Below are positions 18,539 through 39,761 of a stretch of 64,000 bases of DNA, in pieces; positions within the stretch are counted from its first letter, which is position 1; every line of letters begins with the position of its first letter. The position numbers were made by a program, and so were the translations under genes. Under the pieces are notes generated by a model. That model had not been told where the DNA came from. It made no database searches and worked only from the letters and a program-made list of their open reading frames with translations. The stretch is taken from assembly GCF_003668555.1 (NCBI RefSeq), contig NZ_RCWN01000001.1, positions 2,094,501 through 2,158,500 of the forward strand. The letters are read 5' to 3'. Source of the stretch: Notoacmeibacter ruber. GTDB lineage: Bacteria; Pseudomonadota; Alphaproteobacteria; Rhizobiales; Rhizobiaceae.

Positions 18539-19609
18539 ATGACCGAAGCCGCTCAGCAGCAGCTCACACCCATCACCGTTCTCACCGGCTATCTTGGGGC
18601 AGGTAAGACCACCCTCCTCAACCGCATTCTCTCTGAGGCCCACGGCAAGCGTTATGCGGTCATCGTCAACGAATTCGGTGAGATCGGCATCGACAATGAC
18701 CTCATCGTCGAGAGCGACGAAGAGATCTACGAAATGAACAATGGCTGCGTCTGCTGCACGGTGCGCGGCGATCTCGTCCGCGTCGTCCAGGGCCTGATGC
18801 GCCGACCGGGGCGCTTCGACGCTATCGTCGTCGAGACGACCGGCCTTGCCGATCCTGCACCCGTGGCGCAAACCTTCTTTATGGATGACGACGTCCGCTC
18901 GAAGACGGCGCTCGACGCCGTGGTCGCTCTGGTCGACGCCAAGCATCTGCCCCAGCGACTGAAGGACAGCCGCGAGGCCGAGGACCAGATTGCCTTCGCC
19001 GACGTCGTCGTCCTCAACAAGACGGATCTGGTTTCCGCCGATGAACTGGCCAATGTCGAACGCCTCGTGCGGTCTCTCAATCCGATCGCGCCGATCCATC
19101 ATGCCGAGCGCTCCAATGTCGATCTCGCGAAGGTTCTCGATCGCGGCGCGTTCGACCTGAAACGCGTGCTCGATAACGATCCGCATTTCCTCGATCACGA
19201 CGATCCCGCTCACGAATGCGGGCCGGCTTGCGATCATCACCATCATGATCACGACCATGAACACCATCATCACCACCACGGCGATGGCCCGGCCGATATT
19301 CACGATCTGACGGTCAAGAGCGTCTCGCTGCGCGGGGGCGCGATGGACCAGAGCCGCTTCTTCCCCTGGATCCAGAACCTGACGCAGGTGAAAGGGCCTG
19401 ACATTCTGCGCCTAAAGGGCATCATCGCCTTTGATGGAGATGATGATCGTTACGTCGTTCAGGGCGTGCACATGATCATTGAAGGGGACCATCAGCGTCC
19501 CTGGCGCGCGGACGAAGCCCGCGAGAGCCGGCTTGTCCTGATCGGTCGCGATCTGGACGAGGCCTCTCTTCGGGAGCAATTCGAAGCCTGTCAGACGAAA
19601 GCCGCCTGA
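18539..19609 (+). CDS. CobW/G3E-family metal GTPase with histidine-rich loop
   Basis: The 356-residue protein has the P-loop GYLGAGKTT (17-25), the CxCC metal motif Cys70-Val-Cys-Cys73, Walker B-like ETTGLADP, and NKTD for guanine specificity. A loop of about 20 residues near 215-240 is very rich in His and Asp, with two cysteines ([18 protein letters not shown]). The C-terminal CobW domain follows ([16 protein letters not shown]). G3E GTPases deliver or insert zinc, cobalt, iron or nickel into target proteins. The His-rich loop and the nearby creatininase suggest zinc. The ATG has GAGG upstream. The stop overlaps the WD40 gene by one base. Confidence 0.93.
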
Positions 19610-20580
19610 TGCCCTCGGTCGCTCCACTCGATGTTGACGGCCACGTTGCCCATCTCGGCTGGCTGGGAGACGTTGCATTTTTTGGCGATGCCGATGGTTT
19701 TCTCCATCGGCTTGGCGGCGAGACCGGCAAAATCGAAGTCCATGATGGCCTTCTTTGCCTCGCGGTCGATCAGAAGCGCCGCCGCATTCTGACCGGCGGC
19801 GAGGATGGCCGCGTGGTTGCGACCAACGCCGACGGGACGACCGAGGAACTGGCTCGTGAGAAAGGCAAATGGATTTCCGCCATTGCCTATGCGCCGGACG
19901 GAACGGTCGCTTATTCCCATGGCAAGTTTGCCAAGGTGCTTCTAAAAGGCGGAGCGAAGTCCATCGAGCACGAGCGAAGCGTGGAAGCCATGAGTTTCGC
20001 GCCGAAAGGCCTGCGCCTTGCCTGCTCGCATTATAATGGCGTGAGCCTGCACTTTCCGGCCACCGAAAGCCTGCCGACGATTCTGGGCTGGGCCGGGGCG
20101 CATCTGCTTGTCACCTTTTCCCCCAATGGCGACAGCCTGGTTACAGCCATGCAGGAGCCCGCTCTTCACGGCTGGCGCTTGGCAGACGGCCGCCACATGC
20201 GCATGGAAGGCTACCCCTCCAAGGTCAAAAGCCTCTCCTGGAGCGCGAAAGGCAAATGGCTTGCGTCCTCCGGCGCCAACGCCGCCGTTGTCTGGCCGTT
20301 TCAGGGCAAGGACGGACCGATGGGCAAGGCGCCGCTTGAACTCGGCACGCGTGGCGACTCGCAGGTCACCGCCGTCGCGTGCCATCCCAAGGAAGAGATG
20401 GTCGCCATCGGCTATCAGGACGGGATGATTCTGGCTGTCCGGTTCGAAGATTCCAAGGAGGCGCTGTTGCGACGCCCCGGCAAAGGGCCGATCACCGCCA
20501 TAGACTGGGATGGAACAGGCAAACGTCTGGCCTTCGGATCCGAAGCCGGCGATTGCGGCATCGTCGATATCAGCGCGTAA
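19609..20580 (+). CDS. WD40-repeat protein, CobW partner
   Basis: The 323-residue cytoplasmic protein is built of about seven beta-propeller units (for example RRRILTGGEDGRVVATNADG; ISAIAYAPDGTVAYSHG; VKSLSWSAKGKWLASSGANAAVVWPF; VTAVACHPKEEMVAIGYQDGMILAV). There is no signal peptide. The start codon overlaps the cobW stop (TGATG), so the two are translationally coupled. This gene pair recurs in alphaproteobacteria. The propeller is probably a scaffold for the GTPase or its client. No enzymatic residues can be named. Confidence 0.9.
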   Translation: MPSVAPLDVDGHVAHLGWLGDVAFFGDADGFLHRLGGETGKIEVHDGLLCLAVDQKRRRILTGGEDGRVVATNADGTTEELAREKGKWISAIAYAPDGTVAYSHGKFAKVLLKGGAKSIEHERSVEAMSFAPKGLRLACSHYNGVSLHFPATESLPTILGWAGAHLLVTFSPNGDSLVTAMQEPALHGWRLADGRHMRMEGYPSKVKSLSWSAKGKWLASSGANAAVVWPFQGKDGPMGKAPLELGTRGDSQVTAVACHPKEEMVAIGYQDGMILAVRFEDSKEALLRRPGKGPITAIDWDGTGKRLAFGSEAGDCGIVDISA

Positions 20581-20649: not shown

Positions 20650-20682
20650 TTGACGTGAACCTAACACGAACATAAACTGAAC
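20650..20682 (+). promoter_or_regulatory. LexA-controlled promoter with three GAAC half-sites
   Basis: The -35 box TTGACG (20650-20655) and -10 box TAAACT (20673-20678) are 17 bases apart. Three GAAC half-sites at 20657, 20668 and 20679 are each separated by 7 bases, giving two overlapping copies of GAAC-N7-GAAC, the direct-repeat LexA site of alphaproteobacteria. LexA binding would cover the spacer, the -10 box and the start site. The predicted transcription start coincides with the ATG at 20685. Confidence 0.85.
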
Positions 20683-20684
20683 AT

Positions 20685-21917
20685 ATGGGTAAACTCAGTG
20701 TTCGGGATAAGCTGTCGATTCTGTCCGATGCCGCCAAATATGATGCGTCCTGCGCGTCGAGCGGGTCGGCCAAGCGCGACAGCCGCAAGGGCGGCCTCGG
20801 CTCAACCGAAGGCATGGGCATTTGCCATGCCTATGCACCGGATGGCCGCTGTATTTCGCTGCTGAAAATTCTGCTGACCAATTTTTGCATCTACGATTGC
20901 AGCTATTGCATCAACCGATCGTCGTCGAACACGAAACGGGCCCGCTTCACCATTGCCGAAGTGGTGGATCTCACCATCGAATTCTACAAGCGAAACTATA
21001 TTGAGGGGCTGTTCCTCTCATCGGGGGTCATCCGCTCGCCCGATGACACGATGGGCGAGATGGTCGAGATCGCCCGTCGCCTGCGCAATGACCATGGCTT
21101 CAAAGGCTATATTCACCTGAAGACCATTCCTGAATGCGACCCGGCCCTGCTGGAACAGGCGGGGCAATATGCCGACCGTTTGTCCATCAATGTGGAACTG
21201 CCGACCGATAGCGGCGTGCAACGCCTTGCCCCGGAAAAGAAGCCGCAGACGATCCGCCGTGCCATGGGAACGGTGCGCGGCGCGATCGAAGAGAAGAGCG
21301 AACCGACCCTCCGCACACGAAAAAAGCCACGCTTCGCGCCGGCCGGTCAATCCACGCAGATGATCGTCGGTGCCGATCCGGCGCCGGATGCGGTGATTCT
21401 GAAAAGCTCTGCCAGGCTTTACAGTTCATATCATCTGAAGCGCGTCTATTATTCGGCCTTTTCACCCATTCCGGACTCATCAGCCGCCCTGCCCCTGATG
21501 AAACCGCCTTTGATGCGCGAGCACCGGCTTTATCAGGCCGATTGGCTGATGCGATTTTACGGATTCGATAATGAAGAGATCCTGGCCGGATCGCCCGACG
21601 GCATGCTCGATCTTGCGATCGACCCGAAGCTCGCCTGGGCGCTGCGGAACCGACATCTTTTTCCAGTCGACATGAATCGTGCCGACAAGGAGACCTTGCT
21701 TCGCGTCCCTGGTTTGGGTGCCAAATCGGTGATGAAAATTCTGCAAGTGCGCCGCTACCGCACGCTCCGGCTGGAAGATATCGGCGCGCTTGTCCAATCC
21801 ATCGAAAAGATCAGGCCGTTCATTACGGCGGTGGGCTGGTCACCCGGCGGCTTGACCGAGATGGAAAACCTTCGCGCGCGTCTCTCGCCAGAGCCGCAGC
21901 AACTGGCCCTTTTTTAG
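20685..21917 (+). CDS. Radical SAM protein, putative DNA modification/repair, UDG-linked
   Basis: The 410-residue protein belongs to the radical SAM family that accompanies UdgX-type uracil-DNA glycosylases. The N-terminal DKLSILSDAAKYDASCASSGS block is diagnostic. The 4Fe-4S/SAM motif is Cys68-x3-Cys72-x2-Cys75 (CIYDCSYC). A helix-hairpin-helix at about 338-355 (RVPGLGAKSVMKIL) would hold DNA. A radical reaction on damaged or modified DNA is inferred, but no reaction is established for the family. There is no ribosome-binding site, and the ATG lies at the predicted transcription start. The UdgX fusion gene follows after 10 bases, so the two form an operon under LexA control. Confidence 0.92.
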   Translation: MGKLSVRDKLSILSDAAKYDASCASSGSAKRDSRKGGLGSTEGMGICHAYAPDGRCISLLKILLTNFCIYDCSYCINRSSSNTKRARFTIAEVVDLTIEFYKRNYIEGLFLSSGVIRSPDDTMGEMVEIARRLRNDHGFKGYIHLKTIPECDPALLEQAGQYADRLSINVELPTDSGVQRLAPEKKPQTIRRAMGTVRGAIEEKSEPTLRTRKKPRFAPAGQSTQMIVGADPAPDAVILKSSARLYSSYHLKRVYYSAFSPIPDSSAALPLMKPPLMREHRLYQADWLMRFYGFDNEEILAGSPDGMLDLAIDPKLAWALRNRHLFPVDMNRADKETLLRVPGLGAKSVMKILQVRRYRTLRLEDIGALVQSIEKIRPFITAVGWSPGGLTEMENLRARLSPEPQQLALF

Positions 21918-21927
21918 TGGGGCGACA

Positions 21928-23433
21928 ATGACAGAAGATGCGGGAACTGCGAGCGAGTATTTTACGATCTCGTTGAAAACCGAGACCGATTTCGAGGGCT
22001 GGCGCAAAGCCGCACGCGCTTTGGCGATGTCGGGCGTACCTGCGTCATCCGTCACGTTCCTGACACCGTCATCGTCGTCGCAATCGCTTTTTGCCGGCGC
22101 CTCAGAACCTCTGCCCAACGCGTCTGGAGATATCACTTTCGATATTGCCAAAAGTTTCGTGCAGAAGGCGCAAACGGCCACCCATCACTCCGATGCAGAT
22201 CGCTACGACTTTCTCTATCACCTGCTTTGCCGGCTTCTCGCCGAGCCCAATCTGATGAAAATCGCGTCCGACCCCGACATTCGGCGCCTCGAAGCCATGG
22301 GGAAGTCCATTCGCCGCGACGCGCACAAGATGCATGCTTTCGTGCGCTTTCGAAAGACCGGCGATATGGACGCGAGGGACGACGAAGCCCATTATGTCGC
22401 GTGGTTCGAACCCGATCATTTCATCGTCGAACGTGAGGCCGGCTTTTTCACGCGCCGCTTCGCGCAGATGAACTGGTCGATCCTGACGCCGAAGGGGTCG
22501 ATACATTGGGATCGTGAAACGCTCACTGCGGGACCGCCCGCGCGACGTTCGGATGCACCGTCAGATGATGCGACCGAGGAACTGTGGCGCACCTATTTCT
22601 CCAACATCTTCAACCCTGCCCGATTGAAGGTGAAGGCAATGCAGTCGGAAATGCCGAAGAAATACTGGAAAAACATGCCGGAGGCGGCGCTCATTCCGGA
22701 CATGATCGCGGGTGCCGAGAACCGGGCGAAGGCCATGGTTGCCGCCATGCCCAGCACCCCTCCGCCGACCCATGCCGCCATTCGCGACCGGCACTGGAGG
22801 AGTGCTCATATGGCCGAAACCGACAATGCGCCGCCGCCTCCTGCCAACGACTTGGCCACCTTGCGAAAACAGGCGGAGGCCTGCCGCCTCTGCCCCCTCC
22901 ACGAGCCGGCCACCCAGACGGTTTTCGGCGAAGGGCCGGCCGATGCGCGGCTCGTCTTCGTCGGCGAACAGCCGGGCGACAAGGAGGATATTGCCGGCCA
23001 GCCGTTTATCGGACCGGCCGGGCAGCTTTTCGATTCAACACTTGAGGAAGCAGGCATAGACCGCTCATCGGTCTATGTGACCAATGCAGTCAAGCACTTC
23101 AAATTCCAGCCGCGCGGCAAATTTCGGCTGCATCAGAAACCGAATGGGGATGAAGTCCAGACCTGCCGCTGGTGGCTCGGTCAGGAACTGCAGCTGATCG
23201 ATCCGGAGCTCACCGTGGCGCTGGGCGCAACAGCAGCGCAAAGCCTTCTCGGCCGGTCGATGGCAGTCACCAAAGAGCGCGGCCAGATCCTGGAAAGTGA
23301 AGGAGGCAGACAGGTCTTCATCACCGTGCACCCCTCCTTCCTGCTGCGCATTCCCGATGAGAGACACAAGGCGGATGAGCGCGCGCGCTTTCGCGACGAC
23401 ATGATCGCCGTGCGCGAATTGATGGCGGCTTGA
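21928..23433 (+). CDS. DUF4130-UdgX fusion, uracil-DNA glycosylase superfamily
   Basis: The 501-residue protein has two parts. Residues about 85-260 are the DUF4130 domain (RYDFLYHLLCRLL, KSIRRDAHKMHAFVRF, ARRFAQMNW-like core) that accompanies the radical SAM protein. Residues about 308-500 are a UdgX-type glycosylase: Cys319 and Cys322 (CRLC), GEQPGDKED at 346-354, NAVKHFKF, then the lysine/arginine loop KFRLH with His402, Cys413, and HPSFLLR at 468-474. His402 matches by motif the histidine with which mycobacterial UdgX traps the abasic sugar covalently after uracil removal. The two halves are joined by a Pro/Ala-rich linker. Converges on the thiolase gene with a 12-base gap. Confidence 0.9.
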   Translation: MTEDAGTASEYFTISLKTETDFEGWRKAARALAMSGVPASSVTFLTPSSSSQSLFAGASEPLPNASGDITFDIAKSFVQKAQTATHHSDADRYDFLYHLLCRLLAEPNLMKIASDPDIRRLEAMGKSIRRDAHKMHAFVRFRKTGDMDARDDEAHYVAWFEPDHFIVEREAGFFTRRFAQMNWSILTPKGSIHWDRETLTAGPPARRSDAPSDDATEELWRTYFSNIFNPARLKVKAMQSEMPKKYWKNMPEAALIPDMIAGAENRAKAMVAAMPSTPPPTHAAIRDRHWRSAHMAETDNAPPPPANDLATLRKQAEACRLCPLHEPATQTVFGEGPADARLVFVGEQPGDKEDIAGQPFIGPAGQLFDSTLEEAGIDRSSVYVTNAVKHFKFQPRGKFRLHQKPNGDEVQTCRWWLGQELQLIDPELTVALGATAAQSLLGRSMAVTKERGQILESEGGRQVFITVHPSFLLRIPDERHKADERARFRDDMIAVRELMAA

Positions 23434-39720: not shown

Positions 39721-39761
39721 TTGACTCTCAGCAATAACCAGAATTAGAACATAAAGAGAAC
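39721..39761 (+). promoter_or_regulatory. LexA-controlled promoter of imuA-imuB-dnaE2
   Basis: The -35 box TTGACT (39721-39726) and a -10 candidate TTAGAA (39744-39749) are 17 bases apart. The LexA site GAAC-ATAAAGA-GAAC (39747-39761) covers the end of the -10 box and the start site. Its N7 spacer differs at only two positions from one in the radical SAM promoter at 20668. Confidence 0.85.

Follow-up and report, generated by a model that had tools for sequence, protein, structure and literature searches.

What does a radical S-adenosylmethionine (SAM) protein do beside a uracil glycosylase, and when would a cell call on the two together? The question is raised by a two-gene operon of Notoacmeibacter ruber, which lies in a 64,000-nucleotide stretch of contig NZ_RCWN01000001.1 (positions 2,094,501 to 2,158,500 of the forward strand; hereafter the window, whose coordinates are used throughout) and encodes a radical SAM protein followed by a fusion of DUF4130 to UdgX. 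The explanation that we favor, and hold to be probable, is an SOS-induced DNA-lesion repair pair under LexA control, built on a core of radical SAM protein and obligate DUF4130, with UdgX taking part where it is fused. The genes and domains of the operon are as follows.

20685 to 21917, + strand: radical SAM gene, 410 amino acids; TIGR03916 at 569.7 bits against a cut-off of 343.5; PF04055
21928 to 23433, + strand: DUF4130-UdgX fusion gene, 501 amino acids, starting 10 bases past the radical SAM stop codon
21979 to 22686, + strand: DUF4130 domain, the constant partner of the radical SAM protein; TIGR03915 at 212.5 bits against a cut-off of 112.25
22690 to 23409, + strand: UdgX domain; TIGR03914/UdgX at 326.6 bits against a cut-off of 189.95; motif A GEQPG, R-loop KFRLH, motif B HPSFLLR

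All three models (TIGR03916, TIGR03915, and TIGR03914) score over cut-off, which bears out the two-gene operon given in a preliminary description of this DNA, and Pfam matches both the DUF4130 and the uracil-DNA glycosylase (UDG) domains of the fusion. Set beside the annotated TIGR03916, TIGR03915 (putative DNA repair), and UdgX families, the window proteins are typical members that pass all three cut-offs, share their gene order with most of the loci we fetched, and show no family-level difference. The nearest named relatives of the radical SAM and fusion proteins (91% and 84% identity, respectively) are those of Notoacmeibacter marinus.

The radical SAM protein and DUF4130 form the constant core of the system; the fusion to UdgX is optional. 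Among 398 genomes sampled from the phylum, the radical SAM protein scored over cut-off in 84, DUF4130 in 87, and UdgX in 78. Not one of the 84 radical SAM genomes was without DUF4130, and only three DUF4130 genomes (G317, G334, and G403, two of them with UdgX over cut-off) were without the radical SAM protein. UdgX passed its cut-off in 63 of the 84 radical SAM genomes and failed to do so in 21, namely 20 with DUF4130 only and one (G501) whose fused UDG domain scored below cut-off; 15 of the 78 UdgX genomes had no radical SAM protein. Across 192 loci, a count that lists one place twice, as L121 and L151, the partner was a DUF4130-UdgX fusion at 153, DUF4130 alone at 33, split at 1, and non-adjacent at 5, and all five genomes without an adjacent DUF4130 carry it elsewhere. 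The 33 DUF4130-only loci yielded 31 genomes to search after L121 (the repeat) and L180 (at a contig end) were left out; none of the 31 had UdgX over cut-off, and 22 had UDG-superfamily matches below cut-off. L180 is probably a cut fusion, because its contig stops at the locus and another contig of the same genome ends in a piece of UdgX. DUF4130-only pairs also occur in Phocaeicola, Fusobacterium, and Acinetobacter records, where DUF4130 without a UDG domain by Pfam and a radical SAM protein over cut-off were found in three of three. Both families of the pair are also matched in the Caulobacter genome that served as a control. The core is thus defined by DUF4130 in 84 of 84 radical SAM genomes and by the lack of UdgX over cut-off in 21 of the 84 and in 31 of 31 genomes searched, and the latter counts led us to reject a core built on UdgX.

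Three further observations concern the distribution of these genes. In Jiella pelagia (L211), a long distance separates the DUF4130 and radical SAM genes, and a box, GTTCATCTTATGTTC, stands 297 bases ahead of the matched region of DUF4130. On a contig labeled "Acinetobacter phage MD-2021a" (L216, CAKLQH020000003.1), the radical SAM and DUF4130 genes have glyS and glyQ as neighbors, which makes a bacterial chromosome its probable source. In a plasmid collection, the radical SAM gene is present on 158 records, 58 of them from Phaeobacter.

What places the pair in the SOS response is the promoter of the operon, whose elements are listed here with a comparison site from the same window.

20650 to 20678, + strand: promoter-like element TTGACG-N17-TAAACT, from a promoter scan; overlapped by the half-sites
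20657 to 20671, + strand: LexA-type box 1, GAACCTAACACGAAC, from a half-site scan
20668 to 20682, + strand: LexA-type box 2, GAACATAAACTGAAC; its first half-site is common with box 1, it lies over the -10 element, and its position is kept in relatives
39747 to 39761, + strand: LexA-type box GAACATAAAGAGAAC, the comparison site, ahead of imuA-like, imuB-like, and dnaE2 genes

The three GAAC half-sites (20657 to 20660, 20668 to 20671, and 20679 to 20682) are each separated by 7 bases and overlap TTGACG-N17-TAAACT, just as the preliminary description had them on the promoter. The promoter-like element is weak on its own, since the scanned stretch holds two such sites against 1.1 expected. The last half-site ends 2 bases 5' of the ATG at 20685, ahead of which there is no obvious Shine-Dalgarno sequence; with an expected transcription start at about the ATG as well, the radical SAM mRNA is probably leaderless and begins at about that codon. 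Boxes of the same type precede the SOS genes of this genome, with GAACATGAGAAGAAC beginning 66 bases ahead of the matched region of lexA and GAACGACAGGAGAAC beginning 180 bases ahead of that of recA. The same kind of site had been described before imuA-imuB-dnaE2, and the box at 39747 to 39761 confirms it: the dnaE2 open reading frame (ORF) matches DnaE2 at 1439 bits, the imuB-like ORF carries an IMS domain (PF00817, 31 bits), and the imuA-like ORF reaches 22.7 bits with the ImuA model, far below the cut-off of 150, and has no Pfam match.

Taken alone, the pair pattern GAAC-N7-GAAC is not striking. It occurs five times in the window against 1.97 expected (at least five in 4 of 100 shuffles) and at 108 places in the genome against 50 for a reversed control; because it is common in the genome, the argument is carried by conservation rather than by the window alone. 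The triple half-site occurs once in the 3.25-Mb genome, and its reversed control not at all.

Conservation among the Alphaproteobacteria is extensive. A search for GAAC-N7-GAAC upstream of the operon in related genomes, as the preliminary description had proposed, found it ahead of the radical SAM gene in 30 of the 30 best same-family loci (control, 0 of 30), in 78 of 80 named alphaproteobacterial loci, the best 80 of 580 confirmed stretches (control, 2 of 80), and in all 55 alphaproteobacterial over-cut-off loci of the phylum sample (control, 2 of 55). These sets partly overlap, in that the family set and the phylum sample both include the window and some species stand in several sets. In the 162 pooled loci, with some species present twice, the 7-base spacing was found in 160 and any other spacing from 0 to 15 in 0 to 6, and simple shuffles of the same upstream stretches averaged 1.2 and never exceeded 5. 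The spacing test and the shuffles rule out chance as the origin of the operon's GAAC box. The two misses, at Niveispirillum and Chthonobacter loci, have GAAC-like remains close by. At 68 of 144 measured loci the box ends exactly 2 bases 5' of the nearest in-frame start codon. The triple half-site is lineage specific: in the set of 80 named loci it is confined to Notoacmeibacter marinus, and in the same-family set to the window and one same-genus locus.

Outside the Alphaproteobacteria the control appears to be kept and the motif switched. The phylum sample holds 29 loci from other classes (every such locus over cut-off), and CTG-N10-CAG, the LexA box type of Beta- and Gammaproteobacteria, lies upstream of 24 of them, with other CTG spacings from 6 to 14 at 3 loci at most; the longer CTGT-N8-ACAG lies upstream of 19 of the 29. 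The inference rests on the presence of the CTG motif both before the operon and ahead of lexA, where we found it in three of four CTG-type genomes checked. The tie to LexA and the SOS response drawn in the preliminary description is supported by the promoter anatomy, by boxes of the same type before lexA and recA in the same genome, and by conservation in relatives with lineage-specific boxes. From these patterns we strongly infer LexA control of the operon.

That control is well supported but not new. COG4277 is, we take it, the HhH (helix-hairpin-helix)/radical SAM family, that is, the TIGR03916 protein discussed here. According to PMC8565304, SOS regulation of a COG1573-COG4277 pair has been reported in Verrucomicrobia and Alphaproteobacteria and is predicted in Bacteroidetes, with Caulobacter and Verrucomicrobia papers cited. 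Going by COG names, this is the same pair as ours, and LexA-type control is shared; the difference is that PMC8565304 reads it as a uracil glycosylase system for UDG base excision repair, whereas here the radical SAM protein and DUF4130 are constant and UdgX is optional. PMC3765255 predicts that DUF4130 is an enzyme related to mutagenesis and associates it with SplB-like radical SAM photolyases and uracil glycosylases. Given these statements in PMC8565304 and PMC3765255, both the pairing and its SOS link were already known: the recurrence of the gene pair asserted in the preliminary description holds and was in print, and its view that the SOS link was unsettled was too strong. Two further reports touch on the subject, namely an up-regulated protein bearing the pair's family name in desiccated Acinetobacter (PMC13130816) and a radical SAM gene of Streptomyces named among the targets of LexA (PMC9380542). 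In the UDGX paper PMC10776899, the words radical, SOS, operon, fused, and RecA do not occur. Across the open-licence literature we found UdgX together with neither a radical SAM protein nor the SOS response, and neither the core-versus-accessory test nor the extra cysteines described below; these absences are weak evidence.

What the proteins might do is indicated by their residues, of which the following matter most.

20751 to 20852, + strand: codons of C23, C47, H48, and C56, on the 5' side of the radical SAM motif; each residue in 195 of 196 aligned proteins
20886 to 20909, + strand: radical SAM motif C68-x3-C72-x2-C75; CxxxCxxC in 196 of 196 aligned proteins
21666 to 21755, + strand: HhH motif of the DNA-binding type; PF12836 at 21.2 bits, with a weak PDB match of the ComEA type (E 0.045)
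23119 to 23133, + strand: UdgX R-loop KFRLH, whose H402 corresponds in the alignment to H109, the covalent nucleophile of Mycobacterium smegmatis UdgX

The 196 aligned radical SAM proteins include some from the same species. A search of the PDB by sequence found no solved relative of the radical SAM protein, the best match being that of its HhH part, and found none of DUF4130, since every match of the fusion at E of 0.001 or less falls within the UDG part. In DUF4130 itself, R140, R177, W183, W220, Y223, R232, W247, E161, D214, and E252 are conserved in at least 90% of 308 sequences, and the arginines and aromatic residues among them would suit nucleic acid binding. We know of no reaction for a TIGR03916 radical SAM enzyme. 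Spore photoproduct lyase (SplB) is alike in being a radical SAM protein tied to DNA repair, with a link to DUF4130 drawn in a passage of PMC3765255; the window protein differs in matching only TIGR03916, and not the spore photoproduct lyase model, at E up to 0.001.

On the evidence of sequence and gene content, the radical SAM-DUF4130 pair looks like a widespread DNA-repair unit, and the following sequence of events would account for the operon. LexA bound to GAAC-N7-GAAC at the -10 and start region would block a probably leaderless promoter, and DNA damage would lift the block and switch the operon on. Its products would form a DNA-lesion repair unit with the radical SAM protein and DUF4130 as the constant core. 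The radical SAM protein would hold DNA through its HhH region, and its 5'-deoxyadenosyl radical would repair or convert a base lesion, perhaps helped by an extra metal site at C23, C47, and C56; DUF4130 would be the partner required for lesion recognition or for a second step. A fused UdgX may then catch uracil where the lesion was processed, or close by, and hold it covalently through the R-loop histidine.

Several findings weigh against this account. Most genomes with the pair do have UdgX, which is therefore no marginal add-on. Two DUF4130 genes lie far from the radical SAM gene, one with a box of its own and one with none, and three more lie about 2 to 3 kb from it with no box within 400 bases. 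The HhH match (21.2 bits) is below the Pfam cut-off of 27, and both the extra metal site and the fold of DUF4130 are guesses. In one of the four CTG-type genomes there is no CTG box within 300 bases of lexA, and 5 of the 29 other-class loci have no CTG box. Among the box-less loci, two genomes have LexA matches that fall short of the cut-off, only a partial one in one of them; the remaining three genomes belong to one genus and have lexA over cut-off. A TTAG-type box stands ahead of lexA in two of these three (two lexA loci were read), and a TTAG-type site before the operon is absent in all three. With a lexA box and none at the operon in this genus, SOS control of the operon, as read from such sites, is frequent but not universal.

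Just 5' of the radical SAM gene, the three loci of this genus (L153, L165, and L176) carry a palindrome, GGTCTCATCCAATGAGACC, which is imperfect in L165. As an operator it was rejected: the exact core is found at this operon only in two of the three genomes and nowhere in the third, and this pattern makes a hairpin more likely.

A more specific form of the repair-pair explanation, which we advance only tentatively, is that the radical SAM protein and DUF4130 constitute an unrecognized direct-reversal enzyme for pyrimidine lesions, equipped with a second metal site, and that the fused UdgX captures the uracil thereby exposed. Reversal would expose uracil because cytosines within pyrimidine lesions deaminate. 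If true, direct reversal would account for the pair as the core, for a UdgX that is common though optional, for LexA control of the whole, and for the fusion of UdgX to DUF4130 rather than to the radical SAM protein.

The preliminary description had UdgX trapping uracil-derived abasic sites covalently and suggested that the radical SAM protein might resolve or prepare the lesion. Worked out as a UdgX-centered system, UdgX would cap such sites during the SOS response, and the radical SAM protein and DUF4130 would prepare or resolve the UdgX-DNA adduct. The UdgX domain aligns to PDB 6AIL (E 8.2e-55) with the catalytic residues kept, and it shares with M. smegmatis UdgX (PDB 6AIL and 6AJO) motif A GEQPG, the R-loop arginine and histidine, and motif B, differing in its fusion to DUF4130 and in an R-loop of KFRLH rather than KRRIH. 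The signature residues E52, Q53, R107, and H109 (M. smegmatis numbering), which together with their roles and the covalent mechanism of H109 are set out in PMC10359453, are present in the window fusion through GEQPG and KFRLH, and the corresponding E, Q, R, and H are intact in 150 to 152 of the 153 fusions. The fusion is found at 153 of 192 loci, and adducts need resolution, for which PMC10359453 names RecA-dependent pathways or proteases; the same paper calls the physiological role of UdgX largely unknown. The proposal is a poor fit to the distribution all the same: 21 of 84 pair genomes (the 20 DUF4130-only genomes and G501) and all 31 searched DUF4130-only genomes are without UdgX over cut-off, 15 of 78 UdgX genomes have no radical SAM protein, and DUF4130-only pairs extend to the Phocaeicola, Fusobacterium, and Acinetobacter records. 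We regard it as unlikely.

Doubtful, too, is a two-cluster enzyme of the sulfur-inserting or methylthio type acting on DNA, in which the N-terminal cysteines would hold a site-differentiated auxiliary cluster and the enzyme would modify a base rather than reverse damage. LipA and MiaB are auxiliary-cluster radical SAM enzymes and supply the analogy. Three cysteines do precede CxxxCxxC in 195 of 196 proteins, and they are jointly missing from one divergent relative, on plasmid 1 of Gemmatirosa kalamazoonensis (L214; 33% identity, 303.3 bits, below the TIGR03916 cut-off), whose next gene encodes a sensor kinase and not DUF4130 and which is possibly a separate family. The cysteine spacing is unlike that of the LipA and MiaB motifs, and the cysteines could be zinc-binding or structural. 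For the repair pair, the same residues suggest a second metal site tied to a joint reaction with DUF4130, because the extra cysteines go with the DUF4130 partnership, a contrast that rests on the single Gemmatirosa exception.

It is distinctly improbable that the operon is a DNA modification or anti-phage defense module whose SOS box senses phage-induced damage. The distribution is patchy (54 of the 121 genomes from the same family have the radical SAM protein over cut-off), the gene is found on 158 plasmid records, and the family name reads "DNA modification/repair." Against this, neither protein matches PADLOC or PHROGs at E up to 0.001, which rules out membership in a catalogued defense or phage family; LexA boxes conserved across lineages suit ordinary repair; and no neighbor besides the pair recurs. 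The neighbor search, which spanned about 4 kb per side and less at contig ends, found no third operon partner, its largest cluster being present at 13 of 80 loci.

Least credible of all is that the GAAC repeats belong to promoters in general or are the site of a regulator other than LexA, since, common as the pair pattern is in this genome (108 places), the exact 7-base spacing, the promoter position, the same box type before lexA, and the switch to CTG-N10-CAG in other classes, a motif also present at three of four lexA genes checked, all argue against it.

Some features of the genome stand apart from these questions. Upstream of the operon (18539 to 20580), a CobW-family GTPase gene and a WD40-repeat protein gene overlap by 1 base. 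A small contig (G000:C3:27038-27391) holds a second LexA-family match, covering the C-terminal part only at 64.3 bits (below cut-off) and UmuD-like. At G000:C1:762293-762349 and 1282353-1282498, a minus-strand and a plus-strand GAAC-N7-GAAC box start about 42 and 131 bases apart, respectively, like divergent SOS promoters.

For the family as a whole, the SOS-induced repair pair means a radical SAM enzyme that scores over cut-off in 84 of the 398 sampled genomes and is probably SOS controlled and directed at DNA. With DUF4130 and not UdgX as the constant partner, the pair from a UdgX-free bacterium would be the minimal system, and the extra cysteines offer a direct first handle on its chemistry. 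UdgX, for its part, is placed in an SOS context.

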